A stretch of 64,000 nucleotides of DNA from Pelagibius sp. Alg239-R121 (GTDB lineage: Bacteria; Pseudomonadota; Alphaproteobacteria; Kiloniellales; Kiloniellaceae): positions 1 through 64,000 of the forward strand of contig NZ_CAMZOF010000011.1 of assembly GCF_947331435.1 (NCBI RefSeq), read 5' to 3'. The position numbers and the translations under genes were made by a program. The notes beneath the pieces were generated by a model. The model saw only the letters and a list, made by a program, of their open reading frames with translations, was not told the origin of the DNA and did no database searches. This document shows, piece by piece, positions 1 through 16,700 of the stretch (positions are counted from its first letter, which is position 1; each line of letters opens with the position of its first letter).

Positions 1-81
1 TTCCGCCGCGACGCCATGAAGAAACCTGTCGCCGTCGCAGGCATCGACCCCAACGACATGCGGCCACAGCCTTCTCTGTAA
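1..81 (+). CDS. C-terminal fragment of an unidentified protein
   Basis: The first 27 codons of the window read open in frame 1 and end in TAA. The last 26 residues end with MRPQPSL. The reading frame continues off the left edge, so start and length are unknown. No motif allows a family assignment. A strong hairpin lies 41 bases after the stop, which fits the end of a transcription unit. Confidence 0.5.
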   Translation, partial: FRRDAMKKPVAVAGIDPNDMRPQPSL

Positions 82-122
82 ACCGGGCCAAGCCTCTAAG
101 GCTCACCGCAGAGACGACAAAA

Positions 123-148
123 CGAAGGCGGGAGAAATCCCGCCTTCG
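123..148. terminator. Bidirectional hairpin terminator between convergent genes
   Basis: Two perfect 11-base arms (CGAAGGCGGGA and its complement) enclose a GAAA tetraloop. Read on the minus strand the stem is followed by TTTTG, so it suits the end of the redox operon whose last gene stops at 196. On the plus strand the following bases are T-rich but interrupted. It probably serves both converging units. Confidence 0.85.
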
Positions 149-195
149 TGCTTTCCTGTAGACACTTTGATCATCGACTCACGATGATGAGAACG

Positions 196-1380
196 TCACC
201 ATTGATTCTCCATCGGAAAATCGAGCACGCCGTAGGGTGGCGACTTAGGCCGTTCAACGAGAACTTCCGAACCGGAAAGACTGTCGAGGAAGGCAACGAG
301 ATCGTCTATCTCGGCATCACTTAAGCCCAAGGGTTTAATCTTGTCGGTCTTATTGCCGAAAGGCTCGGCCTCACCGCCCTTATTATAAAACTCAACGACC
401 TCACGAAGATCGAAAAAGACACCGTTGTGCATGTAAGGCGCTGTGTAGGCCAAATAACGTAGCGGTGGGGTGCGGAACTTACCGATGTCGGCAATGTCCT
501 TGGTCTTCCGGTATCGGCCCGGGTCACGGTCCAGATGCAGAAAGTCTTTCTCCTCGAATCCCGAGGAGCGCATGCGTTCGCGGAAGGCGATCTGGCGCTG
601 AAGGTTTTCGATAAATGCAGGGTTGGTCGGCAAACCGATGTTGTAGAAGGCCTGGTCGGTCATCAACGGCCCTTCATGGCAGGCAATGCAGCCAGCCTTC
701 CCCTCAAACAGCCCCTTACCGCGCAGCGCCCCTTCTGACAGCGCGCCCTCTTCACCGCCCATGTAACGGTCGAACGCGCTGTCATCAGAAATAACCGTGC
801 GTTCATAAGCAGCGATCGACGCAAGCGCTTTGTCGTAAGTCGGAGCGTCGCCCCAGACTTCCTCAAACAAACGAACGTACTCCGGAATCTGCTTCATGCG
901 CTCCTCCGCGAGAATCTTTTTCAGATTGCCTGCCAGTGCGCCGGAAATAGCCGAATGGGCCTGCGCTTCCAGAGTGTCTGCGGAGGACGTCCAGAACCAT
1001 CCCTTGGTCAGAAAAGCCGAATTGACCACGGTTTGAGAGTTACGCCAGTGCATGGTGCCTGGATAACCGCGAGAAAGATCCGCACCGTCACCCCAACCGA
1101 GTTTCGGATCATGGCAATCGACACAGCCAATCGAGCCGTCACCGGACAGACGCGCGTCGAAGAAAAGATGCTTACCCAGGGCGATGTTCGCTTCGGTCAT
1201 CGGGTTATCTTCGGGCACCGGCATGGGCGGCAGGACGCCGAGCGGTTCGTTCACCTCACTCTGTGCTTCGGCGAAATGGGTGAAGGCAAGGGCGGCGAAG
1301 GCCGTGAAAGCAATCGCGCTCAGGAGTTTGTTGCGTAGCCTGGAAATCATGGGTCTGGAAGTTATGGGTCTGAAAGTCAT
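196..1380 (-). CDS. Di-haem cytochrome c peroxidase, MauG/CcpA family
   Basis: This 394-residue exported protein has two haem c sites, CVDCH (residues 86-90) and CIACH (231-235), arranged as in bacterial di-haem peroxidases and MauG. Such proteins use one high-potential and one low-potential haem in the periplasm to reduce peroxide or to oxidise a partner protein. An N-terminal hydrophobic segment (about residues 18-38, ending AEA) is a signal peptide. I start at the ATG at 1380 because GAGGAG lies seven bases before it; an upstream GTG gives five more residues without a better ribosome site. It is the last gene of the molybdoenzyme operon. Iodate reductase clusters also carry di-haem peroxidases, usually two; only one is present here. 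Confidence 0.9.
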   Translation of the reverse strand: MTFRPITSRPMISRLRNKLLSAIAFTAFAALAFTHFAEAQSEVNEPLGVLPPMPVPEDNPMTEANIALGKHLFFDARLSGDGSIGCVDCHDPKLGWGDGADLSRGYPGTMHWRNSQTVVNSAFLTKGWFWTSSADTLEAQAHSAISGALAGNLKKILAEERMKQIPEYVRLFEEVWGDAPTYDKALASIAAYERTVISDDSAFDRYMGGEEGALSEGALRGKGLFEGKAGCIACHEGPLMTDQAFYNIGLPTNPAFIENLQRQIAFRERMRSSGFEEKDFLHLDRDPGRYRKTKDIADIGKFRTPPLRYLAYTAPYMHNGVFFDLREVVEFYNKGGEAEPFGNKTDKIKPLGLSDAEIDDLVAFLDSLSGSEVLVERPKSPPYGVLDFPMENQW

Positions 1381-1391
1381 ACACCTGCTCC

Positions 1392-2153
1392 TCACGCTTT
1401 CATATCGAGGGAAAGATCAAGGGTTTCGCCTGCGGCAAGCGTGATCTCGCGGGTTACCTCGCCCAGGATCGGATGCCACATCACGAGCTCATGATTTCCC
1501 GGCGGAACATCAGTGATATCGAACAGACCGTCAGCATCCGTTGCCGCGACATAGGGATGATCGGCGGTATAGATCCAGGCCGACATCCAGTTGTGCGCGT
1601 CACAGTCGATCTCCACCACGAACCCCCTTCGCACCTTCAGAGGCGCGATGTCGGTTTGCCCGGCCATCGGTTGAGCGATGTTGAAAAGCGTGCGCCGGGC
1701 CCTACCGATCTGTTCGTAGGTGTGAATGTTGTGCAAAAGCGGATCATGATTGACGATGGTGAGCTCTGCGCCTTTTGGCGCCACCTGAACGAACGGTTCG
1801 AAGAGACAACGCTTCTGATCGATCTTTGGTTGCGTCATCGCAGCAGGCCAGGGCTTGCCGGCCTCAACCTTGCGCAGAGCAACGACCCCGTCTTTCAAAG
1901 CGCCATCGGCGCCGATAGTCAGAGGGTTGGGATTGACCTCACCTACCCCGCAAATGTGCGAGTCCTTGGAAATTGAAACAGAATCTTCCGCAGGCGCTGC
2001 TCCGGTGAAACGTAGGACACCTTTAAGGCGCCCGCCGTCCTTTACGTCACCTTGTGCATAGGCCCTGCCGATCTGCGACCAGCCGATTCCCCCCAGAGCA
2101 AGGGTCGCGCCACCGGCGACGAGCGCCCGACGCCTGCTTATAGACTTGATCAT
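1392..2153 (-). CDS. Tat-exported cupredoxin-like protein with carboxypeptidase-regulatory-like tail
   Basis: The 253-residue product begins with a twin-arginine signal (SRRRALVAGG, residues 6-15) and an h-region ending AYAQ. A cupredoxin-like segment follows, with candidate type 1 copper ligands His141 or His144 and Cys184, His187, Met190 in CDAHNWM. The C-terminal stretch (about 195-245), with VPPGNHELVMWH, looks like a carboxypeptidase regulatory-like beta-sandwich. This domain pair is often annotated as a methylamine-utilisation-type protein. It probably shuttles electrons or protects the periplasmic redox chain. The start overlaps the upstream cytochrome stop by four bases (ATGA), and the peroxidase gene follows 11 bases after its stop, so the genes are co-translated. 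Copper binding is inferred from spacing only. Confidence 0.7.
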   Translation of the reverse strand: MIKSISRRRALVAGGATLALGGIGWSQIGRAYAQGDVKDGGRLKGVLRFTGAAPAEDSVSISKDSHICGVGEVNPNPLTIGADGALKDGVVALRKVEAGKPWPAAMTQPKIDQKRCLFEPFVQVAPKGAELTIVNHDPLLHNIHTYEQIGRARRTLFNIAQPMAGQTDIAPLKVRRGFVVEIDCDAHNWMSAWIYTADHPYVAATDADGLFDITDVPPGNHELVMWHPILGEVTREITLAAGETLDLSLDMKA

Positions 2154-2926
2154 TGTTTCTCCTCCTGCGAAGCCCCTGCTTCGGCTCTAAGGGTCAAAAG
2201 ATATTCAGTGAGGGCCCAGAGTTCTTCATGGGAGGCCCGGCCCGCGTAAGAGGGCATCGGTGAGCCGTCCAGGCCCGTGTAGAAACGCGTCCAAACCTCT
2301 TCCGGTGCATCACCACCCTTGTAACTTCCACTCACCAGGCTGGCGGCAAAGATGCGGCGCCTGTCGTCGTCTTTGAGAGTCAGGGACGAGGCCCCGTCCC
2401 CGTCGCCTTCATCGCCATGGCAGGCCGCACACTGCAGTCGCTCGTAGACCTGCCGTCCCAATTCCAGATTGACCGTCTCCGGCCTCGGTGGAACCGTGAC
2501 GGGCGCCCCCTCCTTGTCCATCCAGGCAAAGGTGCGTACGACCTCGACGAGAGCCCAGCGGTCTGCTTCCGATAGGGACGCAAAGCTTGGCATCTGCGCT
2601 CCGTTCGATCCGGCAAGACCATGGGTAATACTGTCGAAAAGATCTTGCGCCGTTGGAAATTCGCCGGTCGGAGTCGAGCGGATCTTGAAGACCCCGAGCG
2701 TGAGATTACGAGGACGTTGCGAAAGGTACTTTGCGCCGGGTCCATCTCCCTCGCCCTCGGCCCCATGGCAGGCGGAACATTCCCGCGCGTAAAGTTCCTG
2801 CCCGTGGGCGAGAGCTTGCGGATCGGGCGAGACATACTGCGCTACGGCATGTTTGGTGAGCGCGAACTGGACCAAAGCAGCGAAAATCAGAGCCAGGCCA
2901 GTGAAAAGAAGTGATGCAAGTTTCAT
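2150..2926 (-). CDS. Di-haem c-type cytochrome, periplasmic electron carrier
   Basis: The 258-residue protein has a hydrophobic N-terminal segment (residues 5-23) and two haem c sites: CSACH (50-54) and CAACH (166-170). Each lies in a class I cytochrome fold with a later methionine candidate (QMPSFA near 111, SPMPSY near 235). It looks like two fused mono-haem cytochrome domains. Its position directly after the molybdenum subunit gene suggests it accepts or donates electrons for that enzyme at the membrane or in the periplasm. A GGAG ribosome site precedes the ATG. Its stop overlaps the start of the cupredoxin gene. Standard aio operons often carry a single mono-haem cytochrome, so the di-haem form is different. 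Confidence 0.85.
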   Translation of the reverse strand: MKLASLLFTGLALIFAALVQFALTKHAVAQYVSPDPQALAHGQELYARECSACHGAEGEGDGPGAKYLSQRPRNLTLGVFKIRSTPTGEFPTAQDLFDSITHGLAGSNGAQMPSFASLSEADRWALVEVVRTFAWMDKEGAPVTVPPRPETVNLELGRQVYERLQCAACHGDEGDGDGASSLTLKDDDRRRIFAASLVSGSYKGGDAPEEVWTRFYTGLDGSPMPSYAGRASHEELWALTEYLLTLRAEAGASQEEKQ

Positions 2927-2939
2927 TTCGGAGCTCCCG

Positions 2940-5567
2940 TCATCCGATGCTGCGGGGAATGAAAGACATGGCGGAATCGACGCTTTTCAGCGGCGTTTCA
3001 CCGGCCTTCTCCACCCGTCCTTTCCCGATTTTGTAGTTGTAGACAGCGGTGACAGGATCAACGACCGCCGGTACGACGGTGTTGGAATTCTGTCCGGGGT
3101 AGAAGGCGTAGGTGTAGGTGACCCCCGGCGCGACTTCGTCCGTGAGATACGCAACCAGCGACAACACGCCCTTGGTCATGCGCCCGAGTTGATCGCGGAC
3201 CTGGTCGTTGGTGACATGAACCAGATCCCCGCTCTCGATCCCGCGGGCCTTCGCATCTTCAAAGTTGATGAAGAGCCAGTTCATCGGCCAGCGTTCGCGG
3301 ATATAAGGTTTGCGCAGGTCGTCGTACATAGTTTGCCAGATGTGATTAATCCGGCCATTCAGAACCCAAAGCTCGTCATCCTTGGGCTTAAACTCTTCGA
3401 AGATCGGCTCTGCCATCCGCCAGTCGCCGCGCATGAAAATCGCTTTACCGGATTTCGTCTTATGCTTGGTGACATTCCAGTTATGGTTCTCGGGGTCGGT
3501 AATGGCCTTGTCATGCAGACGGACCGTGCCGGTGAGCTTGCCATCGACGACCCGCGCCGGCAGTTGAATACCCGTGGTCGAGAGGGCACGAAGCTGTTCA
3601 TGGCCGGAGAGACCATTTGAGCGGGCAAATTCGATGACCTGGGTGTAGTCATAGTGCCCGCCTTTGGAGCGGGCGGCGGCCTCTTCAAAGACCGCGTTGC
3701 CATCCTTCCAGGCGAAGCCCTCGTAGCCCATCTTTGTGGCGATCTGTCCGACAATCCACCAGTCGGGTTTCGCAGATCCAGGAGCATCGTAGAATTTGGA
3801 ATAGATCCGCAGGCGGCGCTCGCCCTGGGCTCGAGTGAGGTCGGTTTCGCCCCAGGTCGCGGCGGGAAGCACCAGATCGACATATTCGGTTAGATCGTTT
3901 GGATAGATTTCCTGCACGACCAGCGCCATGCCGCCAGCATCCATACGCGCCTTGAGCTGAGCAATGATTTCGTCGCGGTCCAGGCTGTCGACCTGCTTTT
4001 CATGTCCCCGCGTGAAGCTGTGGATCTTCTCGCGCAAGGCCTGCCCTGCCGACATGGAGGTCACCCAGGTGTGTCCGATGACATGGCAGTAGCGGAGATT
4101 GCCCTCCATGGCATGGCGGTCGAAATGAAGCGGCAGTTTGTCCTCGGTCTTCTCGCCGGTAACCGGATGGACAAAGAGGTCGCCCGATTTTTTCAGCGGA
4201 TAGCCCGCGCCTTTCATCATTCCACGCTGGTGCCCGCCGAGGCGCCCGAGGATCCGGCCGGGACGGCCCGACGCGCCGTTCAGCAGCGCAAGACCAGAGA
4301 AAGAACTCGTGTTGGGGAAATTGAAGGACCAGTAATTGCCCTTCTCCAGGAAGAAAGACGCCTTCGGCCTCAGGGTGCCACGGGGCTTGGCCAGCATCTT
4401 CGCTGCGAGGATCAGCTTCTCTGCCGGAACGCCGGTAATCTCGGCGGCATTTTCGATTCGATAAGCGTCGTCTGAGAGGATGAAGGCTTTGTAGTCTTCG
4501 AAAGGCCCTCCAAAGCGTTTTCGCCGCCAGGAGGTTTCCTTCATCATGTCCTCGCTGGAAACCGTGTAATTGGTGATGAAATCGCTGTCTTCCCAGCCCT
4601 GCTCCAGGATGTAGCGGGCGATCGCATTGTTGAGCACGCTGTCGGTGCCGGGCGTCAGTTGCAGATGCAGTCCGCCCGTGCGTTCCGCATAGGCTGCCGT
4701 CGGGCTTTTTCGGGGATTGATCTGAATGATCTTGGCCCCGCCCGGCGCCATCCATTCGGTGAAAAGAATGGTGTGATTTTCGTAAGGGTCAGAGCCCGAA
4801 ATCACGATGACATCGGCCTCCATGACGTCAGGATAGCCATAGGAGAATCCGTCGACACCCGCATCGTCCACGCCGGTGGCGTCATTGGCGGCGGTGTTTT
4901 TATCGTGCTCCGCACCTGCGGGAGTCCCAACGGCACCATAGGCCCACTTGGTCAGCGCATAGGTGTTCTCCCAGAACTGGTAGGAGTAGTATTTGATCCC
5001 CCAGGCCTCTTCCCCCCACTTGTCGATGGCATAGCGGCCAAGTTCGGCGGCGATCGTGGTCGCGTCCTCCCAGGAGATGGCATGCAGCATGCCGCGTGAA
5101 CGGACCATCGGGGTTTGCAGGCGTTCGGCAGTGGGGCGTTTCGGATTGTAAGGCTTGAGCCCTAGGGTTCCGCCGCGGACTGAATGGTTACCTTTCCGGT
5201 TCACCGCCGTTTCGCCGTCCGGCAGGATGACGACGTGATGGGGTTCGCCGTTGTGGCGCACCACATTGTGCATATTCGGGCTGACCCACTTGCCCGAAAC
5301 AGGCCCGGTGGGAAACTGCTCATTGAAGGCGTTGTGGTCGGGCTTCGCACCGCCCTCGCTGTGATAGGGCCAGCGATAGACTTTGTAGCCGCAGCCGACG
5401 ATACAGTACTCGCAGGCGGTCGGCAGGACCTCCGCATCGGCTGGAGGTATCGGGACTTCGTCCACGGGCAAATCGTAGCTGCCGGTGTCGAGCGACGGCG
5501 TGCGGGCCGCGGTCAAAAATTCACGGCGCGATTTATCAAAAAGTGATCTTCTGGGTTTGTCAGTCAT
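2940..5567 (-). CDS. Molybdopterin oxidoreductase large subunit, arsenite oxidase/iodate reductase type
   Basis: The 875-residue protein belongs to the DMSO reductase superfamily. Cys52-x2-Cys55-x3-Cys59 (CEYCIVGCGYKVYRWP) is the 3Fe-4S signature and context typical of AioA, and SDPYENHT and RLGGHQRG match its pterin and substrate-channel regions. Compared by eye with AioA, the RxxxH pair (Arg442, His446) is kept, but the region holding the arsenite ligands His and Glu reads DATGVDDAGVD (229-239), without the His. This argues against simple arsenite oxidase activity. SRREFL near residue 13 resembles a Tat motif but lacks a hydrophobic region, so export probably depends on the Rieske partner, as in Aio. 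The start at 5567 follows AAGGA; an upstream start would overlap the Rieske gene. Iodate reductase IdrA is the nearest alternative; the substrate is not decidable by eye. Confidence 0.85.
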   Translation of the reverse strand: MTDKPRRSLFDKSRREFLTAARTPSLDTGSYDLPVDEVPIPPADAEVLPTACEYCIVGCGYKVYRWPYHSEGGAKPDHNAFNEQFPTGPVSGKWVSPNMHNVVRHNGEPHHVVILPDGETAVNRKGNHSVRGGTLGLKPYNPKRPTAERLQTPMVRSRGMLHAISWEDATTIAAELGRYAIDKWGEEAWGIKYYSYQFWENTYALTKWAYGAVGTPAGAEHDKNTAANDATGVDDAGVDGFSYGYPDVMEADVIVISGSDPYENHTILFTEWMAPGGAKIIQINPRKSPTAAYAERTGGLHLQLTPGTDSVLNNAIARYILEQGWEDSDFITNYTVSSEDMMKETSWRRKRFGGPFEDYKAFILSDDAYRIENAAEITGVPAEKLILAAKMLAKPRGTLRPKASFFLEKGNYWSFNFPNTSSFSGLALLNGASGRPGRILGRLGGHQRGMMKGAGYPLKKSGDLFVHPVTGEKTEDKLPLHFDRHAMEGNLRYCHVIGHTWVTSMSAGQALREKIHSFTRGHEKQVDSLDRDEIIAQLKARMDAGGMALVVQEIYPNDLTEYVDLVLPAATWGETDLTRAQGERRLRIYSKFYDAPGSAKPDWWIVGQIATKMGYEGFAWKDGNAVFEEAAARSKGGHYDYTQVIEFARSNGLSGHEQLRALSTTGIQLPARVVDGKLTGTVRLHDKAITDPENHNWNVTKHKTKSGKAIFMRGDWRMAEPIFEEFKPKDDELWVLNGRINHIWQTMYDDLRKPYIRERWPMNWLFINFEDAKARGIESGDLVHVTNDQVRDQLGRMTKGVLSLVAYLTDEVAPGVTYTYAFYPGQNSNTVVPAVVDPVTAVYNYKIGKGRVEKAGETPLKSVDSAMSFIPRSIG

Positions 5568-5577
5568 GTTTTTTCCT

Positions 5578-6174
5578 TCAACCGCGCATGAGCCGTCGGC
5601 CGGATCCGCTGGGTTTTTGCGCATCCTCGGCAAAGTCACCGCCTTCGAGATTGTTCCGTTGACCGTAAATCAGACCGATCACGCCGACGGCGACGATCTC
5701 GTCGCCATCCAGGCGCAAAACGATCTGAGGCAGGTTCTGTGTCGCCTGCGCATGAACGGGGATTCCGCCTTTGGTGAGATCGAAGGTCGAGAAGTGAAAG
5801 GGGCACGGCCCAAGCGCATTCACGTCATGCCGATAGCGCCCGCGCAGGGAACCGCCCATGTGCGGACAGAGGGTCGAGTAGGCGACGATATCCCGGTCAA
5901 CTCCGACGCCGCGTCGTGCAGTTGTCCCAAGCTTGACCAGAAGATTGGGTTGTTGCTTCAGGGGATAGGCAAAAGCGAGGGGCTCGCCCTCGATCAGCGC
6001 GGAAGCGTTCCCGATCCGGAGTTCCGGATAGATATCTCGGCTGAGATCCGCCTCACCCGTGGCTGCTTCGACAATATCGCTTGGCACAAAGCTCGCGGCC
6101 ATCACACCACAAGCTGCACCCTTCATCGCCAACCGGCGGCTAAAACAAAATTCCGAATCCTTTTGGTCGGTCAT
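5578..6174 (-). CDS. Tat-exported Rieske iron-sulfur subunit, AioB/IdrB type
   Basis: The 198-residue product starts with a twin-arginine leader (SRRLAMKG, residues 12-19, then a hydrophobic run to about 30). It has the Rieske 2Fe-2S ligands Cys103-x-His105 (CPHMGG) and Cys124-x2-His127 (CPFH). That spacing and size match the small subunit of arsenite oxidase and of iodate reductase, which carries electrons to or from the molybdenum subunit and pulls it through the Tat pore. The classical Rieske disulfide cysteines are not evident: position 107 is Gly and position 126 is Phe, as in many AioB-like proteins. A GAGGGA site precedes the ATG. The molybdenum subunit follows ten bases later, its ribosome site overlapping this stop codon. 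Confidence 0.88.
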   Translation of the reverse strand: MTDQKDSEFCFSRRLAMKGAACGVMAASFVPSDIVEAATGEADLSRDIYPELRIGNASALIEGEPLAFAYPLKQQPNLLVKLGTTARRGVGVDRDIVAYSTLCPHMGGSLRGRYRHDVNALGPCPFHFSTFDLTKGGIPVHAQATQNLPQIVLRLDGDEIVAVGVIGLIYGQRNNLEGGDFAEDAQKPSGSGRRLMRG

Positions 6175-6286
6175 GAAGCGTCCCTCGTTTGTTGATGATG
6201 CCTCTGATGAGTAAGAGCCTCGGTAGCCAGGCGCTTGTTACTCGCTCGACCTTCGATGCGAATGGTCCGAACGGATCTGGTACCGA

Positions 6287-6298
6287 GCGTCATGACGC
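6287..6298. promoter_or_regulatory. 12-base palindrome upstream of the molybdoenzyme operon
   Basis: GCGTCATGACGC is a perfect palindrome about 115 bases before the Rieske start, in the only intergenic stretch that can hold the operon promoter. I found no GGAAC-N16-CGTT copy here, so the operon may not be a direct target of the neighbouring sigma factor. The palindrome could be a regulator site or chance. Confidence 0.25.
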
Positions 6299-6350
6299 GT
6301 TCTCCCGTTGCCCGAATGCACGACATTGGGCTGGCTCGATTCAGAGACTG

Positions 6351-6377
6351 GAAAAAACCAGCGGCTAACCTAGCCGC
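6351..6377 (-). terminator. Terminator after the anti-sigma gene
   Basis: On the minus strand GCGGCTA-GGT-TAGCCGC forms a perfect 7-base stem with a 3-base loop, followed by TGG and six T residues. It lies 22 bases past the anti-sigma stop. It separates the sigma/anti-sigma unit from the molybdoenzyme operon, which therefore needs its own promoter between 6175 and 6350. Confidence 0.75.
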
Positions 6378-6398
6378 GGGCGCGGGTTAACTTGCTAT

Positions 6399-7364
6399 CT
6401 AGGTTTCGTGGTTTGCGGCCAGTTGGGCGCGGGTTCGATTTGGCTGTTTTCGACTGCGGTCTGCCAAAATTGGACTGCCGGTTGCGGCAGCCTTAAGCTT
6501 CAAGCCTCCGATGAAGCGCAGCATCTCGTTTTTCGGTTGATCCGAAACCAGGGCGTAAACGAGGTCTCCGCTTTGCCAGATCAGATTGCTATAACCCTTG
6601 ACCTCAGAGCTGGAGATGACCTGACTTGCCAGCGGTTCCCAGGTCCCTTCTGGAATCTCAAGGCCCTCCCCCGTCATGACATAAAGCGAAACGCGGTCGC
6701 CCGAACGCTCGTACATCAGGGCGGAAAGCCGCCGGTTCAGGAAATAACAGAGGCGGCTGCCGACCAGGCGAAAACCATCCGTCTCCGACCGGTCCAATGG
6801 CAGTCGGAAGTCGACCTTGCCATTAAACCATTCTTTCAATTTCGCGGGATCCGACGCCGCCATATCCAGAGAGCGCTCACTCATCTTGAAGGTGATGAAA
6901 TCGTTTACCGGCTCGACGACCAATGGGTTTTTCCCACCAAGGCGGCTCCAATAGGGTGAGGAAAAACCAACCCCAAGCGCCAGCAGAAAACCAGCGGCGA
7001 TCGCCCCGGCACGCCGCCGGCCAAACCGTGATACTCGGGTTGAATTCTGGTCTGGAGTGTCATCGCGATGAGGCTGGCCGGACACTTCCGTCAACGTGTT
7101 TTCGGACATACTATCGGGCCGGTCATCTGAGATCGAAAGCATAACATCGCCCCAGAGGCCATCCGGCGCCTGTTCATCACGACAAGTCTGTTGCAGCCGT
7201 CGCTCAATCGCGATTGTTTCCTCAACTGCCTTGGAACAACCTGAGCAATAGGTCAGATGACCTTCGACGATGCGGGCTTCGTGTGCAGGCAATTCCCCGT
7301 CCACATAGGCTGATAAAGCCTGTCTCATCAACTCACAGTTTGTCTTCGCCATATTCTCAGTCAC
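6399..7364 (-). CDS. Zinc-finger anti-sigma factor, membrane-anchored
   Basis: The 321-residue protein starts with a zinc-binding anti-sigma domain: MRQALSAYVDGEL near residue 13 and the His-x3-Cys-x2-Cys set HLTYCSGC near 36. A single membrane segment (about residues 113-135, AGAIAAGFLLALGVGF) follows, then a C-terminal sensor domain on the far side of the membrane. Such proteins hold their ECF sigma factor inactive until a periplasmic or thiol signal releases it. The start overlaps the sigma stop by four bases (ATGA), the usual translational coupling of sigma and anti-sigma. Linkage to the downstream periplasmic oxidoreductase suggests an oxidant signal; that is inference. Confidence 0.9.
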   Translation of the reverse strand: MTENMAKTNCELMRQALSAYVDGELPAHEARIVEGHLTYCSGCSKAVEETIAIERRLQQTCRDEQAPDGLWGDVMLSISDDRPDSMSENTLTEVSGQPHRDDTPDQNSTRVSRFGRRRAGAIAAGFLLALGVGFSSPYWSRLGGKNPLVVEPVNDFITFKMSERSLDMAASDPAKLKEWFNGKVDFRLPLDRSETDGFRLVGSRLCYFLNRRLSALMYERSGDRVSLYVMTGEGLEIPEGTWEPLASQVISSSEVKGYSNLIWQSGDLVYALVSDQPKNEMLRFIGGLKLKAAATGSPILADRSRKQPNRTRAQLAANHET

Positions 7365-8023
7365 TTTCTCTGGACCGATGGTTCGTCGCGCTGACTTTTG
7401 CGCGCCGGGCCGGTCCCTCCACCGCCAGGCCGAGCCGGGTCGGAATCAGATTTTACAAAACGGATAAGATCTTCCTGCAGCACCTGACGGCCACGGCTGA
7501 GACGCGACCGCACCGTACCAATCGGACAGCCGACGACTTCGGCGATCTCCGCATAGGTAAATTCCTCGAAAATCGCCAGGACAACGACAATGCGCAGATC
7601 GGGCGACAAGCGACCGACCGAACGTACAGCCGCATCGCGGAAATCCTTGTGTTGAAGATCGATTTCCGGATCGCTGTCTCCCACGCCCCGAAACGGAAGC
7701 ACCGTGGCGACCTGATGCAGCCTGGATGCCGATCCGCCCACATTGGCCTCGTGGCACAGACTGTCGAGATCCACCAGCCGCGGCTCCGCCTGCGCCCGCC
7801 GGAGGTCGATGCAGGTGTTGGTCATGATTTTAAAGATCCAGGCCCGGTAATTGGTCCCGGTTTCGAAACGATGAAGAGCCCGAAAGGCCTTCAGGCAGGT
7901 GTCCTGAACCAAATCCTCGGCAGCCTGCTTTTCCTGTGTCATGCGCAGCGCCGTCCGAAAGAGGCTATCGAGCAACGGTCGCGTCTTTGCTTCGAACGTC
8001 TGTTGCCTCGTTTGCAACGTCAT
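7361..8023 (-). CDS. ECF-family RNA polymerase sigma factor
   Basis: The roughly 220-residue product has sigma region 2 (AAEDLVQDTCLKAFRALHRF and WIFKIMTNTCID, about 35-75) and region 4 with a helix-turn-helix (YAEIAEVVGCPIGTVRSRL, about 170-188). There is no region 3 or 1.1, as expected for ECF factors. An insert of about 45 residues separates the two regions. A C-terminal tail rich in Gly, Pro and Arg is probably disordered. I prefer the ATG at 8023, which has GGGG five bases before it; a GTG two codons upstream is possible. It is transcribed from a GGAAC-N16-CGTT promoter and coupled to the anti-sigma gene. Confidence 0.92.
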   Translation of the reverse strand: MTLQTRQQTFEAKTRPLLDSLFRTALRMTQEKQAAEDLVQDTCLKAFRALHRFETGTNYRAWIFKIMTNTCIDLRRAQAEPRLVDLDSLCHEANVGGSASRLHQVATVLPFRGVGDSDPEIDLQHKDFRDAAVRSVGRLSPDLRIVVVLAIFEEFTYAEIAEVVGCPIGTVRSRLSRGRQVLQEDLIRFVKSDSDPARPGGGGTGPARKSQRDEPSVQRK

Positions 8024-8110
8024 AGACACCCCATTCGTTCCGGCCCTTCAATCCAGAAACCGGACCCCGGTCATCGCCACCCCGGCTGATTTGACCTTCT
8101 TACCTCCTAT

Positions 8111-8135
8111 AACGAGGCTCCACGAAAAGAGTTCC
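8111..8135 (-). promoter_or_regulatory. ECF-type promoter GGAAC-N16-CGTT for the sigma gene
   Basis: The minus strand reads GGAAC, 16 bases, then CGTT (followed by AT), ending 88 bases before the sigma ATG. This matches the EcfG general-stress promoter of Alphaproteobacteria exactly and is also typical of autoregulated ECF factors. Expected transcription start is near 8104. Confidence 0.7.
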
Positions 8136-8250
8136 AGGTTTTTTCGCGGGCGCCGAGATCTTATGAATCATATGGGAAGCTCTGATTGGATCTCGAACAT
8201 CTTCTTCACCAGTGACTCAGGATGTGACAGTATCAAAGCCACGCCGCAGT

Positions 8251-8280
8251 TCAAAAAAAGCCCGCCGGATGTTGGCGGGC
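8251..8280 (-). terminator. Rho-independent terminator after the nitroreductase gene
   Basis: On the minus strand GCCCGCC and GGCGGGC form a 7-base stem with a 7-base loop, followed by seven T residues. It lies about 107 bases beyond the nitroreductase stop at 8387. Together with the promoter at 8111-8135 it accounts for the visible content of the gap between 8024 and 8386. Confidence 0.85.
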
Positions 8281-8386
8281 CATTGATATTATGCTGTTGC
8301 ACCCGCCCCATGCTGGGCGCCCCTTTGAAGACTGAGCGTTACTCACTGGGCCAGCAGAAAAATCGAATTGTCTGATGCTTGTTCGC

Positions 8387-8995
8387 CTAGGTAAGGGGGA
8401 TGGCGTCCGGATAACTTACGACCGTTCCGGCATCAGGGCGTACACGCTCACTCGGCGGCTCGACGGCTGTTCCGAAATACATCAGGCCGACAATATGCTG
8501 ATCGCCGGTGACGCCCAATGCATGCTTCACGTTGTTGTTGTAGGCAGGCCATTCAGTCAGCCATTGTGCGGCATAGCCAAGTGCGGCAGCAGCATTGAGT
8601 AGGTTCATGCAAACAGCACCACACGAGAGCAATTGTTCGAATTCCGGCACGGAATGCTCTTTGTTCACGTTGCTGCTGACCACAATCAAAGTCGGAGCTC
8701 TTTGCGGTCGTAAGCGCTCAAACTCAATTTGTGCGTCGTTCGCATCGGGGATACGCGCCTTGAATTCGTTGGCCAGAACATCACCGAGCATGGCTTGAGC
8801 GGATTTATCGAGAACCTGTAGACGCCAGGGACCGATCTTACCATGATCCGGCACTCTGATTCCGGCCTCCAGAATTAACTCAAGCTCTTCGCTGGTCGGT
8901 CCGGGCTCGCTCATATTCTTAGCCACCACTGACCGCCGACTGCGCAGGAGTTCTATGGATTGTTTTGCTGAAGAATTAACTATGGTGTCCATCAT
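8387..8995 (-). CDS. Nitroreductase family flavoprotein (YdjA-like)
   Basis: This roughly 200-residue FMN-dependent reductase of the small YdjA-like group shows ELLRSRRSV near the start, then PDHGKIGPWRLQVL (GPWR phosphate and flavin contacts) and a C-terminal glycine-rich region LGYAAQWLTEW. Family members reduce nitro compounds or quinones with NAD(P)H in the cytoplasm. The first of two adjacent ATG codons (8995) is used; a GTG four codons upstream is the other candidate, and neither has a strong ribosome site. It appears to be a single-gene unit with its own terminator. No pathway link to the neighbours is visible. Confidence 0.85.
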   Translation of the reverse strand: MMDTIVNSSAKQSIELLRSRRSVVAKNMSEPGPTSEELELILEAGIRVPDHGKIGPWRLQVLDKSAQAMLGDVLANEFKARIPDANDAQIEFERLRPQRAPTLIVVSSNVNKEHSVPEFEQLLSCGAVCMNLLNAAAALGYAAQWLTEWPAYNNNVKHALGVTGDQHIVGLMYFGTAVEPPSERVRPDAGTVVSYPDAIPLT

Positions 8996-9093
8996 GTCGT
9001 CTAGCACTCACTTTTATCACTATGGCGCCTAAAACGAAACTGAGCCTTGCGCAGCCCAACAATCCCGGAAGTCGTATATCTATCATTCCGTCA

Positions 9094-9882
9094 CTAATCG
9101 ACAAAAGACTTCTCTACGACGAAATCACCGGGCTTTGAATTCGCCCCTTCGACAAAGCCAGCATTCTCAACCAGAGCACGGATATCCCGGATCATTCCCA
9201 TCGAGCCACAGATCATCACGCGATCACGCTCCGGATCAAAAGGCTCCGTGCCGACGGTTTGAAACAGCTGCCCATTCTCGATCAGATGATTGATTCGCCC
9301 CATATTAACGTAATCTTCGCGTGTCACGCTGCCGAAGTAGCAAAGCTGCGTAACAGCCTGCTCACCAACCAGCGGGTCTTTTTTGACGTCATCGACAAGC
9401 CTCTGCCCGTAAGCCAGTTCGGCAATTTCACGGCAGGTGTGGGTTACGATAACCCGTTCAAAATTCTCGTAAGTTGCGGGATCGCGAATAATACTGGCAA
9501 AGGGCGCAATGCCGGTCCCCGTCGACAAGAGATAAAGGTTTTTGCCTGGCTTCAGAGCATCCAAAACCAACGTGCCTGTCGGTTTCCGACCCAGTAGAAG
9601 ATTGTCGTTTGCTTGAATGGTCTGCAGGCGGCCGGTCAACGGACCGTCCGGCACCTTGATCGAGAAAAAGTCCAGGGCGTCGTCCCACGCCGGACTGGCG
9701 ATGGAATAGGCGCGAAGCAGAGGTTTTTCGCCGTTCATCAAGCCAATCATCACGAATTCACCAGATCTGAAGCGAAAGCTCGCCGGTCGCGTGATCCGGA
9801 AAGAAAAGAGTCGATCCGTCCAATGATGCACGTCGATGACCCGTTCAGCGGTCACCGATTTTGGCAGATTCGCAGTTTCCAT
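9094..9882 (-). CDS. fpr: Ferredoxin-NADP(+) reductase
   Basis: The 262-residue protein matches the bacterial Fpr subclass: FAD-binding RAYSIASP, the SIKVPDGPLTGRLQ segment, the NADP-binding STGTGIAPFASIIRD, and MICGSMGMIRDIR near the C-terminus. It ends VEKSFVD with the family's usual extra C-terminal residues. It transfers electrons between NADPH and ferredoxin or flavodoxin, often in oxidative-stress or iron metabolism. The start at METANLPKS (ATG 9882) fits the family's N-terminus VHHWTDRLF; an upstream GTG at 9945 would add 21 residues inside an inverted repeat, so I reject it. A Fur-like site lies about 255 bases upstream. Confidence 0.93.
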   Translation of the reverse strand: METANLPKSVTAERVIDVHHWTDRLFSFRITRPASFRFRSGEFVMIGLMNGEKPLLRAYSIASPAWDDALDFFSIKVPDGPLTGRLQTIQANDNLLLGRKPTGTLVLDALKPGKNLYLLSTGTGIAPFASIIRDPATYENFERVIVTHTCREIAELAYGQRLVDDVKKDPLVGEQAVTQLCYFGSVTREDYVNMGRINHLIENGQLFQTVGTEPFDPERDRVMICGSMGMIRDIRALVENAGFVEGANSKPGDFVVEKSFVD

Positions 9883-9938
9883 ACCCACTCTCAGCTCCAG
9901 TCTCGTTCCGTTTTCAATGGCACTCAAGGACTGACCTA

Positions 9939-9959
9939 TTTTCACTAACTCAGTGAAAA
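9939..9959. promoter_or_regulatory. Inverted repeat upstream of fpr, possible operator
   Basis: TTTTCACT and AGTGAAAA form perfect 8-base arms around AACTC. The centre is about 67 bases before the fpr start, a reasonable place for a regulator site. No family could be assigned. Confidence 0.45.
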
Positions 9960-9989
9960 GTCTGAATCAGCCGCTCATTCATATAGTTA

Positions 9990-10034
9990 GAGTGCAATCG
10001 GTCTCGACGGTTTCCGTCGAGACCGATTGCACTC
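9990..10034. repeat. Perfect 21-base inverted repeat with 3-base loop
   Basis: Arms 9990-10010 and 10014-10034 are exact reverse complements (starting GAGTGCAATCGG), separated only by TTT. A shorter flanking match, TTAGAGTGC at 9987-9995 and its complement GCACTCTAA at 10048-10056, extends the symmetry. There is no T-run on either strand, so it is not a typical terminator. It lies between the rpiB-like gene and fpr. Confidence 0.9.
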
Positions 10035-10136
10035 CAGCCCGCTTCGCGCACTCTAATAGTCGCCCGGATGGCTATTCGGAAAGCTTTAAGTGGGCGTCGT
10101 GCCAGAGACTGCAAGATAGGGATATCAAAGAAAATT

Positions 10137-10155
10137 GCAAACGATAATCATTATT
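10137..10155. promoter_or_regulatory. Fur-box-like sequence
   Basis: GCAAACGATAATCATTATT matches the 19-base Fur consensus at 15 positions by my count, including the core GATAATCATTAT. It lies in the 350-base gap between fpr and the rpiB-like gene, and could serve a leftward transcript through the inverted repeat into fpr. Alphaproteobacteria also use Mur or Irr, so the protein is uncertain. Confidence 0.5.
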
Positions 10156-10232
10156 AACACAAATCTACAAAAATCAATCTCCTTGCGGTCGAGCGATCAG
10201 ACGTTTCCCGGTCGGCAGATCAGCTAAAGGCA

Positions 10233-10700
10233 CTACCTCACCTGGTCCAGAGCTGCGAGTTTGGCTACCTTGGGTGCCGAGCGGCCACCTTGGAAGCTGT
10301 TCCGGATAAAGATATCGGCGAGCATCTTTGCAACGGATATTCCGGTGATCTGCGCACCGAAAGTCACGATCTGTGCATCGTTGCTCGCAATGGCCCGCTC
10401 CGCCGTATAGGGATCTGTCACACACACAGCCCGCACTCCCGGAATTTTGTTTGCAGCAATAGCCATACCTGCACCCGTCCCGCAGATCAGAATCCCACGC
10501 TCGAACGCGCCATCGGCAAGCTCCCGGGCAAGACCGGAGCCCATATCCGGGTAATCGACCGGGGTCTCGTCATGCACCCCGAGATCAACGACTTCGATGC
10601 CCTGTGAGGCAAGATGGTCGCGCAGGTCATTCTTCATCGTCAGGCCGAGATGATCACAGCCGATGCCAAGCTTTGTGACTTTGATATCGCTGTCCGTCAT
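10233..10700 (-). CDS. RpiB/LacA/LacB-family sugar-phosphate isomerase
   Basis: The 155-residue protein has the RpiB fold signatures: GCDHLGLTMKNDL at the start, DYPDMG near 50, and the catalytic cysteine loop CGTGAGMAIAANK near 73, then VRAVCVTDPYTAERA and ASNDAQIVTFGA. Family members interconvert phosphorylated aldoses and ketoses: ribose 5-phosphate, galactose 6-phosphate, or tetrulose phosphates (EryI/DerI types). It is the last gene of the polyol operon, and its start overlaps the preceding dehydrogenase stop by four bases. The context, with a kinase and polyol-phosphate dehydrogenases, favours a role such as tetrulose-4-phosphate to erythrose-4-phosphate; this is inferred, and plain ribose-5-phosphate isomerase remains possible. 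Confidence 0.88.
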   Translation of the reverse strand: MTDSDIKVTKLGIGCDHLGLTMKNDLRDHLASQGIEVVDLGVHDETPVDYPDMGSGLARELADGAFERGILICGTGAGMAIAANKIPGVRAVCVTDPYTAERAIASNDAQIVTFGAQITGISVAKMLADIFIRNSFQGGRSAPKVAKLAALDQVR

Positions 10701-12887: not shown

Positions 12888-14216
12888 TTAGACACTGCCT
12901 TCCGCGTAGCTTTCCAATTGCCCGCTGTCGGCGGCCAGGTCCAAGGCGCTGAAACGCTCTCTGATGAAACGAGCATAGCGCACCGCATCAGAATAAAATC
13001 CAGGCGGTAGCCCCAGTTCCTCTCCCGTTGTCTGGCAGTGCGCAGCATCCATGGCCGTCTTTACCTGCGCGTAAGGCAGCATGACGGCGCGCAGTTGGTC
13101 GGCAAAGCCCTGCCAGTCGTCTGCAAAGCGTTGGTTCAGACGGTCTGCCGCGCTCCGATCCAGGGCTTTCAGCTTCGTCTGCTCAATCATCATGGTGGCG
13201 TAGTCGCTGCCGAACTTACTGTGAAGATCGGCTTCGGGAATGACCGTCGGACGCATTTCGGGCGGTCCATCCGCATTCAGCAGCATGTTCTGCAGGCGTG
13301 ACATGGTCAGCGTAGCGACACCGACCTGCTCGCCGTGCGAAGTACGCGGATGGGCTTCGCCAGCGAACATATCAATGTAGTGGGAAATCATATGTTCGGC
13401 CATGCTGCCGCAGTGGGTTGTGCCGGTGAAGGATGTGCCCAGCCCCATGATCGCCGAGATTCGCGTCAACATGGCTAAGGATTCGACACTGCCGGACAAC
13501 ATCTGATCCGCGTTGGAAATCATGTCGCCTTCATCGTAATTGAGCAGTACATACGGCGTGTCGGAATAGGGTGTATCAAAGAGGAGGTGGGACATCAGCC
13601 AGTCAACCTGCGCCGTCGTCCGGCAGATGACATCGGCGAAGGCGGCCGAAATCAGCCGTGGCGGGCATTTGGCGATAACGCCCAAGTCGTAATAGATCCC
13701 CTTGGCTCCGTGGCAGGGGATTGATTTTTTGAAACCGCCAAATGAAACCGATGCCGTCGAGGTCGAATAGGCGTTCATAGGCGAAGTCGCGAAGACCGAA
13801 TAGTCGCGCCCGTCCAAATAGGTGGCATACTTGACGCTATCGTTGACCGTTCCCGAACCCACAGCAATCAGAACCTCGGTGCCGCGGGTCGCTTCCTGCA
13901 AAGCCTTTACGCCCTCTTCAGAACAGCTCGGTTTCTGCCAGACGTATTCCGTGACACCACCCAAGGGCTTGAGTGCTTCGTAAACGCGCTTGCCCAGGGC
14001 TTCCCGGGTAAAGGCGTCACAGACCACGACCATCGACTTGCCATGGTGGCGCGCGCTGATCAGATCGGCCTCGGCACCATCCAACGATGCAGCAATGACC
14101 ATGGCTTCGGGCGGGATGGAATGCTGTTCTCCGGTCTTAGGATTCACCCAGTTGCCGGCAACCAGTTCGTCCAGAACGCCGCCATAGCTGTCGATAGCTT
14201 CGGTTGCAGTGGACAT
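12888..14216 (-). CDS. Iron-containing dehydrogenase, glycerol-1-phosphate dehydrogenase (AraM) type
   Basis: This roughly 442-residue protein belongs to the metal-dependent dehydroquinate-synthase/glycerol-dehydrogenase superfamily. The nucleotide loop GSGTVNDSVKYAT (near 128), TSPMNAYSTSTAS and the metal-site region GTTHCGSMAEHMISH with a later HGEQVGVATL resemble AraM and archaeal sn-glycerol-1-phosphate dehydrogenase. It therefore probably acts on a polyol phosphate of the opposite stereochemical series from the GpsA-like neighbour. I use the ATG at 14216, preceded by AGGAACGGAG; a GTG at 14237 overlapping the kinase stop is the alternative. Substrate unknown. Confidence 0.83.
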   Translation of the reverse strand: MSTATEAIDSYGGVLDELVAGNWVNPKTGEQHSIPPEAMVIAASLDGAEADLISARHHGKSMVVVCDAFTREALGKRVYEALKPLGGVTEYVWQKPSCSEEGVKALQEATRGTEVLIAVGSGTVNDSVKYATYLDGRDYSVFATSPMNAYSTSTASVSFGGFKKSIPCHGAKGIYYDLGVIAKCPPRLISAAFADVICRTTAQVDWLMSHLLFDTPYSDTPYVLLNYDEGDMISNADQMLSGSVESLAMLTRISAIMGLGTSFTGTTHCGSMAEHMISHYIDMFAGEAHPRTSHGEQVGVATLTMSRLQNMLLNADGPPEMRPTVIPEADLHSKFGSDYATMMIEQTKLKALDRSAADRLNQRFADDWQGFADQLRAVMLPYAQVKTAMDAAHCQTTGEELGLPPGFYSDAVRYARFIRERFSALDLAADSGQLESYAEGSV

Positions 14217-14233
14217 GGTCTCCGTTCCTACAG

Positions 14234-15772
14234 TCACGCAGGTGTTCCTTCCGCGGCAAAGCGCACCAACCGCTTGTTGATGCTTGATGTGGCTTGATAA
14301 AGATCGCGATAGATTTCGAGCAGCGCGCGATAGCGCTCACCCTTCCCGGCATCGGGTTCGATTGCCTGAGTGCGTCCGGACATGGCGGCGGCGGCGGCCA
14401 CGATGGAGGGATACCAGCCAGCACCAAAGGCGGCGATCATTCCGGCGCCCAGAGCCGAGGCTTCGACCGTATCGCTGATCAGCACCTGCTTGCCCGACGC
14501 ATCGGCCAACATCTGCCGCCAGAGCGGGCTAGCCGCTCCGCCTCCGATCGCGACGTAATGGGAAATGGGATGGCCTAGGGCGGTTTCCGTCTCGCCTGTC
14601 CGCATGACCTGATCGATAGTGATGGCTTCCAGGATCGCGCGGTAAATATGTGCCGCGCCGTGACTGCCGCCCAAGCCAAGAATCGCGCCCCGTGCCGAGA
14701 TATCCCAATACGGATCCATCACGCCGGACCAGTAAGGCTGTATCAGCAGACCGTTGGATCCGATCGGAACTTCGAGTGCTTCTGCCTCCAGCCGGGTAAA
14801 GACCTCAGGATCACTTCTTCCGCCCGGCATGAAGCGGTCGACGAACCAGTCGACGAGAAAGGTGCCGGAACGCAGACAGTTCTCCAGGATGTAACCGTCC
14901 CCCTGTGCGGCAATCTCGGTGCGCCAGGCGGGCCCGGTGCGGTAATCCGGCGACCAGACGCCCGACACGACGGCGGTACCCAGGTTGATGTAGGCGCGGT
15001 CAGGCTGGACGCAATTCGTTCCCAACCCCGCACACTGCCCATCGCCACCCGCTGCAAAGATCGGTGTGCCCGCTTTCAGTCCCGTTTCCGTTTCGGCTTC
15101 TGAGGTCACTCGACCCAATTCAGCCCCCGGAGGACAGGCTTCCGGCAACTGGGAGGCATCGATCGCAAGTGCGGCGAGCAGTTCTTGCGACCAGCACTTT
15201 CCTTCCATGTCGAACAGGCCCATGGGATCAGCCGAAATCCAACCTGTTTTGAAGGGACCACCGGCAAGACGTTGGACCAGATAGCTCTGAACATCGACAA
15301 AGTTGGACGTGCGGGCATAAACCTCGGGCTCGTTCTCCTTCATCCAGAGCAGGCGGTAGAGACAGGGGGTGATATCCACCGGCCGGCCCGTGATCCGATG
15401 GATCCGCTCCGGCCCGAAGCTCTCGGAAAAGCTCTCAACCTGCACCCGGGCGCGCTCGTCCAGCCAAGTGATAGCTGGATAGGTGGCTTCGCCCCGATCG
15501 TCCAGAAACGCGATGGTTTCGCGCTGGTTGGATATTGCGACTGCGTCGATCCGCTCCGGCCCCACTTGTGCCACACAGGCGTTTAACGCCTCACTGCAGG
15601 CCGTCCACCAGTCCAGGGGGTCCTGTTCGAAGCAATCGAGTCTGGGATTGGAAAGAGGGATCAGCGCGCGCCCTTCAGCCACCGCTTCACCGGCCGCATT
15701 CCAGGCGATCGCCTTGGTGCTCTGCGTGGAGCTGTCGAGCCCGATAACCAACTTTTCGGAGCTGGAAGACAT
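14234..15772 (-). CDS. FGGY-family carbohydrate kinase
   Basis: The 512-residue kinase has the N-terminal actin-fold phosphate loop GLDSSTQSTKAIAWN (near 11), AISNQRET near 80 and TWLDERA near 105. The C-terminal domain carries GGDGQCAGLGTNC (near 247) and the ATP-binding AIGGGAASPLWRQMLAD (near 409). Length and motifs are close to xylulokinase and polyol kinases of the family, which includes erythritol and glycerol kinases. It should phosphorylate the imported polyol or the ketose made by the adjacent SDR. It follows the SDR gene by four bases. Confidence 0.93.
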   Translation of the reverse strand: MSSSSEKLVIGLDSSTQSTKAIAWNAAGEAVAEGRALIPLSNPRLDCFEQDPLDWWTACSEALNACVAQVGPERIDAVAISNQRETIAFLDDRGEATYPAITWLDERARVQVESFSESFGPERIHRITGRPVDITPCLYRLLWMKENEPEVYARTSNFVDVQSYLVQRLAGGPFKTGWISADPMGLFDMEGKCWSQELLAALAIDASQLPEACPPGAELGRVTSEAETETGLKAGTPIFAAGGDGQCAGLGTNCVQPDRAYINLGTAVVSGVWSPDYRTGPAWRTEIAAQGDGYILENCLRSGTFLVDWFVDRFMPGGRSDPEVFTRLEAEALEVPIGSNGLLIQPYWSGVMDPYWDISARGAILGLGGSHGAAHIYRAILEAITIDQVMRTGETETALGHPISHYVAIGGGAASPLWRQMLADASGKQVLISDTVEASALGAGMIAAFGAGWYPSIVAAAAAMSGRTQAIEPDAGKGERYRALLEIYRDLYQATSSINKRLVRFAAEGTPA

Positions 15773-15776
15773 AACG

Positions 15777-16499: not shown

Positions 16500-16655
16500 A
16501 GAACAGCTTTCCGACTGATAGCTTCGATATTTCGATCAAACAGCTGGAGCATGACCCTTCTTGAGGAACGCCATCAAGAACGTGAGCCATCTCCAACTAT
16601 ATGAATTAGAGACTGAACCTCGTTTACATTGACTCGGCGAAAACGATCAGCCTCT

Positions 16656-16681
16656 CGGGGCGGCACCTATGCGCCGCCCCG
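16656..16681 (-). terminator. Stem-loop after the solute-binding protein gene
   Basis: CGGGGCGGC and GCCGCCCCG form a perfect 9-base stem with an 8-base loop, about 20 bases past the binding-protein stop. There is no T-run. Such stems usually stabilise the upstream message or terminate partly, so the abundant binding protein is made in excess of the downstream enzymes. Confidence 0.65.
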
Positions 16682-16700
16682 TTACGACCTCTCCCTCGAG

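Follow-up and report, generated by a model that had tools for sequence, protein, structure and literature searches.

Is the molybdoenzyme encoded at the start of one contig of Pelagibius sp. Alg239-R121 an arsenite oxidase, an iodate reductase or an enzyme for some other oxidant? The window which we have analysed is a stretch of 64,000 nucleotides, positions 1 to 64,000 of contig NZ_CAMZOF010000011.1 (assembly GCF_947331435.1), and the genes in question are found in positions 196–8135; those from the Rieske subunit to the peroxidase we will call the block. An initial annotation, made from the letters alone, had proposed a new branch for iodate or another oxidant. The answer which we favour, with moderate confidence, is that the block encodes a periplasmic molybdoenzyme of the Idr type, a further branch of iodate reductases beside the two canonical subclades, which would reduce iodate with a changed set of partners. 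Iodate is probably the default substrate, because the large subunit is placed on the Idr side, the peroxidase of the block is a relative of IdrP1 and its cupredoxin is also found with canonical idr genes. The first part of the initial proposal has stood: the branch is separate, the arsenite site is gone and the partners differ. The branch lies on the Idr side, however, and a new oxyanion is probably not needed. The features of the locus are the following, in the direction of reading:

8111–8135, minus strand: promoter-like element of the extracytoplasmic function (ECF) type, GGAAC-N16-CGTT, upstream of the sigma gene (pattern search)
7361–8029, minus strand: ECF sigma factor (Pfam Sigma70_r2/r4)
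6399–7364, minus strand: anti-sigma factor (zf-HC2, 4.7e-09), with a zf-HC2 head, one membrane stretch and an outer domain (topology assigned by eye)
5578–6174, minus strand: IdrB-type Rieske [2Fe-2S] subunit with a twin-arginine signal (TIGR02694, 122.5 bits, cut-off 95.65)
2940–5639, minus strand: IdrA-like molybdenum catalytic subunit (TIGR02693, 445 bits, cut-off 359; Pfam Rieske_3)
2150–2926, minus strand: di-haem cytochrome c, presumably periplasmic (two CxxCH)
1392–2153, minus strand: cupredoxin with a C-terminal carboxypeptidase-regulatory-like domain (alignment of 13 sequences, AlphaFold model, Foldseek)
196–1395, minus strand: di-haem peroxidase of the IdrP1 type, MauG/CcpA family (CCP_MauG, two CxxCH)

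These genes overlap or nearly touch each other, with the exception of a gap of 224 bases between the anti-sigma and the Rieske genes. There is an overlap of 4 bases between the sigma and anti-sigma genes, and another of 4 bases between the cupredoxin and peroxidase genes. The large subunit probably starts at the ATG in position 5567 and not at the GTG in 5639, since the frames of two related contigs, L027 and L028, begin there. All the genes named in the initial annotation are open reading frames in their place and on a single strand. The architecture of arsenite oxidase or iodate reductase, which it had read in the Rieske and molybdenum subunits, agrees with the scores of TIGR02694 and TIGR02693 above their cut-offs. 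The three partners it had named (a di-haem cytochrome, a cupredoxin-like protein and one MauG/CcpA peroxidase) are borne out by the haem motifs, the cupredoxin model and the CCP_MauG match, and the upstream sigma/anti-sigma pair by its Pfam matches. The end which it gave to the locus, 8135, is the first base of the GGAAC-N16-CGTT element. In positions 1–10500 no RNA element reaches the gathering threshold. The start of the window is the exact end of contig C11 in the host genome (G000, 8.02 Mb). In each of the four congeners (the window, G001, G002 and G003) the stretch homologous to positions 1–154 is located at the end of its contig, which suggests a repeat beside the locus.

The large subunit belongs to a group of six loci, which we call clade A: the window, the congener G002 and four contigs from metagenome-assembled genomes (MAGs), L027, L028, L029 and L030. 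The record L031 duplicates the contig G002:C8. Among the genomes searched, in overlapping sets of 58, 385, 398, 61, 48 and 369, clade A was seen only in G000 and G002. The block is conserved across the six loci, except for the peroxidase, which L028 does not have. In a tree of 65 rows the six members come together with support 100, beside 27 rows of canonical IdrA and far from 28 rows of AioA type. For the experimentally tested IdrA strains the plasmid L034 of Azonexus, in which two peroxidase genes precede B and A, was used as a stand-in. A more careful tree of 35 rows, from which we left out 30 of the 65 (long branches, near-duplicates, fragments and the outgroup), gives 100/100 to clade A, 92/96 to canonical IdrA (B) and 100/100 to both of them together. 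In a third tree 34 of the 65 rows were left out and ten rows from another class of the phylum were added. Clade A is unchanged; of the added rows, eight join canonical IdrA and the other two a small group C.

Alternative positions were compared by the approximately unbiased (AU) test. Clade A forced together with AioA is rejected (p 1.7e-72), with the canonical subclade B2 it is weakly rejected (p 0.019), and with the canonical subclade B1 it is not rejected (p 0.109). The best tree has clade A as the sister of all IdrA, and a position as the sister of B1 remains compatible with the data. The median identities of the large subunits, in a table without L035 and L100, are 47.2% between A and B1, 45.0% between A and B2, 49.6% between B1 and B2 and 31.1% between A and AioA. 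The distance of clade A from either canonical subclade is thus little more than that between B1 and B2. The large subunit is 41–51% identical to the canonical IdrA rows compared. The separate branch of the initial annotation, examined as a phylogeny with AioA and IdrA, is therefore found beside IdrA and away from AioA. The same annotation had named, as the case against a new branch, a place inside IdrA with known gene content: the partner set differs from the known one, and a join with B1 is compatible with the data (p 0.109).

Two side cases appear in these trees. Group C is a small separate set of Aio/Idr-type enzymes, formed by L057 (G046), L061 (G043), L150 (G1015) and L151 (G903); in L057 and L061 the arsenite-site His is kept (EVHA) and the Glu is not. 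In locus L143 (G1129, positions 4550–8035) the IdrA/IdrB pair falls with the canonical rows, but its place there is weak (84). Its large-subunit frame is longer, 973 amino acids, and no recognised peroxidase gene is found within about 5 kb. It is another exception to the idrABP1P2 rule.

The active site can be compared column by column. We take the His and Glu of AioA (EVH...GE), together with its Arg and His (R-x-GGHQ), to be the residues which bind arsenite. In clade A the His is replaced by Thr255 and the Glu by Gly264 in all six members. Arg466 and His470 are kept in the six of them, with the motif RLGGHQ. The absence of the His and the conservation of the RLGGHQ pair had been noticed in the initial annotation; the loss of the Glu is an additional difference, which it did not mention. 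Canonical IdrA has Pro, Thr, Val or Ala in the first of these columns and Asn, Ser or Ile in the second, and conserves the Arg and His in 27/27 rows. In the AioA-type rows the His is found in 24/26 and the Glu in 26/26, after setting aside two long-branch rows of the 28, L040 and L043, which also have no His. Clade A also reads NDATG-(V/L)DD-x-GVDG-F where the Azonexus-type subclade of IdrA has the very similar NDATG-LDDAGIDSF. The nearest solved proteins are arsenite oxidases, both by sequence and by fold: the top Foldseek match of the model (mean pLDDT, the predicted local distance difference test, 76) is AioA 1g8j, with an expectation value (E) of 2.2e-55. The NCBIfam score also names the protein an arsenite oxidase. 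An identity as canonical AioA is ruled out by the tree, the AU test and the site residues.

The Rieske subunit gives a test which is independent of the tree. The spacing between the two halves of its motif, CxH-X18-CxxH, is 18 in 6/6 rows of clade A. It is 18–20 in 35/35 canonical rows, 15 in 3/3 rows of group C and 13–15 in 24/24 AioB. A pair of Arg residues near the start is found in 6/6 rows of clade A and also in 24/24 AioB, so that it is the spacing alone which discriminates. Judged by this spacing, the Rieske subunit is IdrB-like. The motif CXHX18CX2H is given for IdrB of Azoarcus DN11 in PMC10149662.

Clade A is also peculiar in its peroxidases. We built a tree of 62 di-haem peroxidases, in which the five enzymes of clade A come together (100/97) and adjoin the peroxidase which is the neighbour of idrB in canonical clusters (92/75); the other Idr peroxidase is separate (100/99). 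The canonical gene order is idrP2, idrP1, idrB, idrA, according to PMC10989891 (mLife). From this order and the grouping with the peroxidase adjacent to idrB, the window enzyme is of the IdrP1 type. Three other members of the family in the host genome fall outside the Idr peroxidase groups. When the tree is rooted on them, the split between P1 and P2 is deeper than that between clade A and canonical P1, and the simplest history would therefore be a loss of P2 in clade A. An IdrP1-type gene is found in five of the six loci of clade A, including the window. A direct search with three peroxidases detected this one gene in each of the five and no second peroxidase in any of the six. In the host genome a homologue search combined with the tree gave no relative of IdrP2.

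Canonical clusters were counted in 37 loci, many of them close relatives; L035, whose record begins within the gene, is absent from the count. Among the 32 loci with at least 3 kb upstream (L050, L054, L055, L104 and L146 have less than 3 kb and were skipped), 31 have both peroxidases and the exception, L143, has neither. None of nine AioA-type loci has a peroxidase, in flanks of only 0.1–6 kb a side. The rule of two peroxidases for idr and none for aio, quoted in the initial annotation, holds in our sample within the limits of these short aio flanks. We should note that, because of its overlap filter, the neighbourhood table does not show the cupredoxin of L027 and L030, the anti-sigma factor of L029 and L030 or the IdrP2 of L051, all of which were found by separate comparisons.

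A canonical idr cluster with its second peroxidase lying beyond the contig end was considered and rejected: in G002 the block is followed by TetR-type and flavodoxin-like genes, and G000 has no relative of IdrP2. An incomplete operon idrP1-B-A is mentioned for another MAG, GCA_001771285.1, in PMC10989891; it may be either a precedent or a cut contig. Membership in the MauG family (TIGR03791, 210 bits, cut-off 444) and in the MbnH family (TIGR04039, 209 bits, cut-off 363) was also rejected for the window peroxidase.

The two other partners are candidate electron carriers. The gene of the di-haem cytochrome is adjacent in all six loci of clade A. Its closest relative in the PDB is 6h5l_B (E 6.8e-45), which we take to be a Kuenenia protein. 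In L028, downstream of the block without peroxidase (positions 13281–18044), there are genes for a Cox11-like protein, a DUF4382 protein, a subunit of the COX1 type and a fusion of a FixO subunit with a di-haem domain; this domain is 39% identical to the cytochrome of the block.

The cupredoxin has 253 residues and no match to the Pfam cupredoxin models. Its AlphaFold model (pLDDT 85.5) has pseudoazurin as the top PDB match in Foldseek (E 6.8e-5, template modelling score by target 0.49), and amicyanin and plastocyanin are also found among the matches. The C-terminal carboxypeptidase-regulatory-like stretch scores 29.6 bits, below the cut-off of 32.3. His141, Cys184, His187 and Met190 are invariant in 13/13 aligned cupredoxins and likely form a type-1 copper site. 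Nine of the 37 canonical idr loci have a homologue as a neighbour, before the cluster in some and after it in others; in L101, L102, L142 and L145 the gene adjoins one of a peroxidase. Among 58 relatives the cupredoxin was found in four genomes (E up to 1e-12), always beside a cluster of idr type.

Canonical clusters have other neighbours as well. A protein with HEAT repeats follows idrA in L093 and L099, and other loci have frames of a similar length in this position. Upstream of the peroxidases, L093, L144 and L148 encode a three-haem protein; the copy of L093 has a domain similar to ethylbenzene dehydrogenase.

Relatives of the sigma/anti-sigma pair precede the block in five of the six loci of clade A, with 31–71% identity, L027 being the one without them. 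No such pair appears in the table of the 37 canonical loci, with its limited flanks. In 7/7 cases (the window, its three congeners, L028, L029 and L030) the 200 bases before the sigma gene contain the pattern GAAC-N15-18-CGT[TC], which occurs in 6/165 control upstream regions, or 3/158 after dropping the frames over sigma genes. The pattern was picked after inspection and the seven upstream regions represent four lineages. A box of the form GGAAC...CGTT is also that of EcfG promoters. The ECF linkage proposed in the initial annotation is thus true for five of six loci, but the pair is kept without the block in two congeners and similar pairs occur in three other genomes. Since the pair is also found alone, the block is a unit gained or lost behind a type of regulator which exists without it.

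Several observations weigh against a plain iodate reductase with changed partners. Clade A has no IdrP2, and the 20.6 kb of L028 contain no peroxidase at all. G002 holds three types of enzyme, of clade A (C8:230722), canonical IdrA (C2:595280) and AioA type (C2:882544), and the coexistence of the block with a canonical idr cluster hints at different roles. There are 25 positions invariant in clade A which differ from residues at least 90% conserved in IdrA. To these we may add Gly264, where IdrA has mostly Asn or Ser; this column is less than 90% conserved in IdrA and is outside the 25. A search with the promoter pattern gave no ECF element immediately in front of the Rieske gene. The congeners G001 and G003 keep the sigma pair and the flank without the block. 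In its place they have a TetR gene, a flavodoxin-like gene (both named by their likeness to G002) and genes of molybdopterin-dependent oxidoreductases; these last stand beside the sigma/anti-sigma pair in L115 (G001) and L116 (G003), with MoCoBD and Fer2 domains in L115. Finally, G007, G030 and G010 have sigma/anti-sigma pairs, and the nearest 1.5 kb or so around them contain no idr gene. Their sigma factors are 33–45% identical to that of the window, compared with 35–48% for L028–L030, and the regulator may therefore not be dedicated to the block.

The alternative which survives best is a paralogous oxyanion reductase, derived from the Idr line, with another oxidant as substrate (bromate, chlorate, hypohalite or selenite), whose new cytochrome and cupredoxin would be adapted to this reaction. 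Clade A would then be a separate respiratory or detoxifying enzyme for a substrate other than iodate, under an ECF switch for periplasmic oxidants. It would be induced by stress, against reactive halogen species and not for anaerobic respiration, and would work with a narrower set of one peroxidase, a dedicated cupredoxin and the di-haem cytochrome. The fixed differences together with Gly264, the changed partner set, the coexistence in G002 and an ECF linkage not seen beside canonical loci are all in its favour. However the divergence from IdrA is barely above that between the canonical subclades, clade A resembles IdrA in its Arg/His pair and its NDATG motif, and both the IdrP1-type peroxidase and the idr-associated cupredoxin have been retained. 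We consider such an enzyme, in its general form as in this detailed one, unlikely.

A quite different role for the cupredoxin may also be imagined: it could be the maturation substrate of the peroxidase, in a protein modification like those of MauG or MbnH, instead of an electron carrier. The overlap of the two genes, the scores of the peroxidase against the MauG and MbnH models and the adjacency of both genes in four canonical loci could be explained in this way. The scores are far under the cut-offs, however, L028 has the cupredoxin without any peroxidase, and the invariant, complete set of type-1 copper ligands favours electron transfer. This role is very improbable. Least probable of all is an enzyme working in the oxidising direction, on arsenite, antimonite or another reduced substrate, with electrons passing through the cupredoxin and the di-haem cytochrome to an oxidase: the NCBIfam name, the AioA fold and, close to the block of L028, a cbb3-like oxidase to which a di-haem cytochrome is fused would suit it, but no member of the clade retains the His or the Glu of the arsenite site, the grouping with AioA is rejected and a peroxidase is found in 5/6 loci of the clade versus 0/9 of AioA type, where the flanks are short.

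If the block encodes an iodate reductase, as we favour, its mode of action may be sketched as follows. The AB pair would be exported by the twin-arginine pathway. Electrons would leave the respiratory chain at the level of cytochrome bc1 and pass through the di-haem cytochrome, the cupredoxin or both to the Rieske centre, from there to the [3Fe-4S] centre and to the molybdenum site, where iodate would be reduced, probably to hypoiodous acid. The single peroxidase would remove H2O2 or related oxidants and may take its electrons from the cupredoxin; pseudoazurin is the electron donor of some bacterial di-haem peroxidases. With less certainty, the ECF sigma factor would be held by the membrane anti-sigma factor with its outer domain and, once released, would activate its own promoter and read through into the block. 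The trigger could be an oxidant or an envelope stress signal. For the canonical system, it is reported that deletion of idrA in Denitromonas abolishes growth on iodate (PMC8692401) and that the active band of Azoarcus DN11 contains IdrA, P1 and P2 (PMC10149662). The models outlined there have a four-electron reduction to hypoiodous acid, peroxidases acting against H2O2 and no quinone oxidoreductase in the cluster (PMC8692401, PMC10149662).

The presence of such a branch has consequences for the study of iodate reduction, since IdrA is used as its marker in ocean surveys. According to PMC8692401, all the neighbourhoods of its idrA clade show idrABP1P2, and the threshold of the published IdrA model, 640, is set to exclude genomes without IdrP1/IdrP2 beside IdrAB. 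Clusters without IdrP2 would probably escape this published census, and the NCBI family model scores them as arsenite oxidase; surveys may thus overlook clade A or give it a wrong name. A description of a similar branch was not found in the titles and abstract openings on iodate reductase and idr genes, a sample which does not establish its absence from print. If clade A does reduce iodate, the minimal set would be IdrAB with at most one peroxidase, and the role of the two peroxidases would become directly testable. The linked cupredoxin and cytochrome would be candidates for carrying electrons from the respiratory chain to IdrAB.

We may now compare the block with the known systems. With the di-haem enzymes MauG and MbnH, and with bacterial cytochrome c peroxidases, it shares the CCP_MauG domain and two CxxCH haem sites. 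Unlike MauG and MbnH, the window peroxidase is below the family cut-offs, and it groups with IdrP1 and not with the three other members of the host. With the arsenite oxidase AioBA the block has in common the overall fold, the plan of the subunits and the R-x-GGHQ motif. It differs by the replacement of the site His and Glu, an identity of about 31%, a Rieske spacing of 18 instead of 13–15 and a peroxidase gene in the string. The closest system is idrABP1P2, as found in Pseudomonas sp. SCT, Denitromonas sp. IR-12 and Azoarcus sp. DN11. The likeness includes a large subunit on the IdrA side, the IdrA-like pattern of the active site, the IdrB-type Rieske spacing, the twin-arginine signal, a di-haem peroxidase of the IdrP1 type and the iron-sulphur motif CX2CX3C. 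We do not count the block as a canonical idrABP1P2 cluster because IdrP2 was looked for and is absent. It is also different in that its peroxidase gene is downstream of B and A and not upstream, the di-haem cytochrome and the cupredoxin are inside the gene string, and an ECF sigma pair lies upstream in five of six loci. As far as the sequences indicate, clade A is a divergent branch within the Idr family, seldom sampled, which has fewer peroxidases and candidate electron carriers of its own, and it is probably still an iodate reductase.

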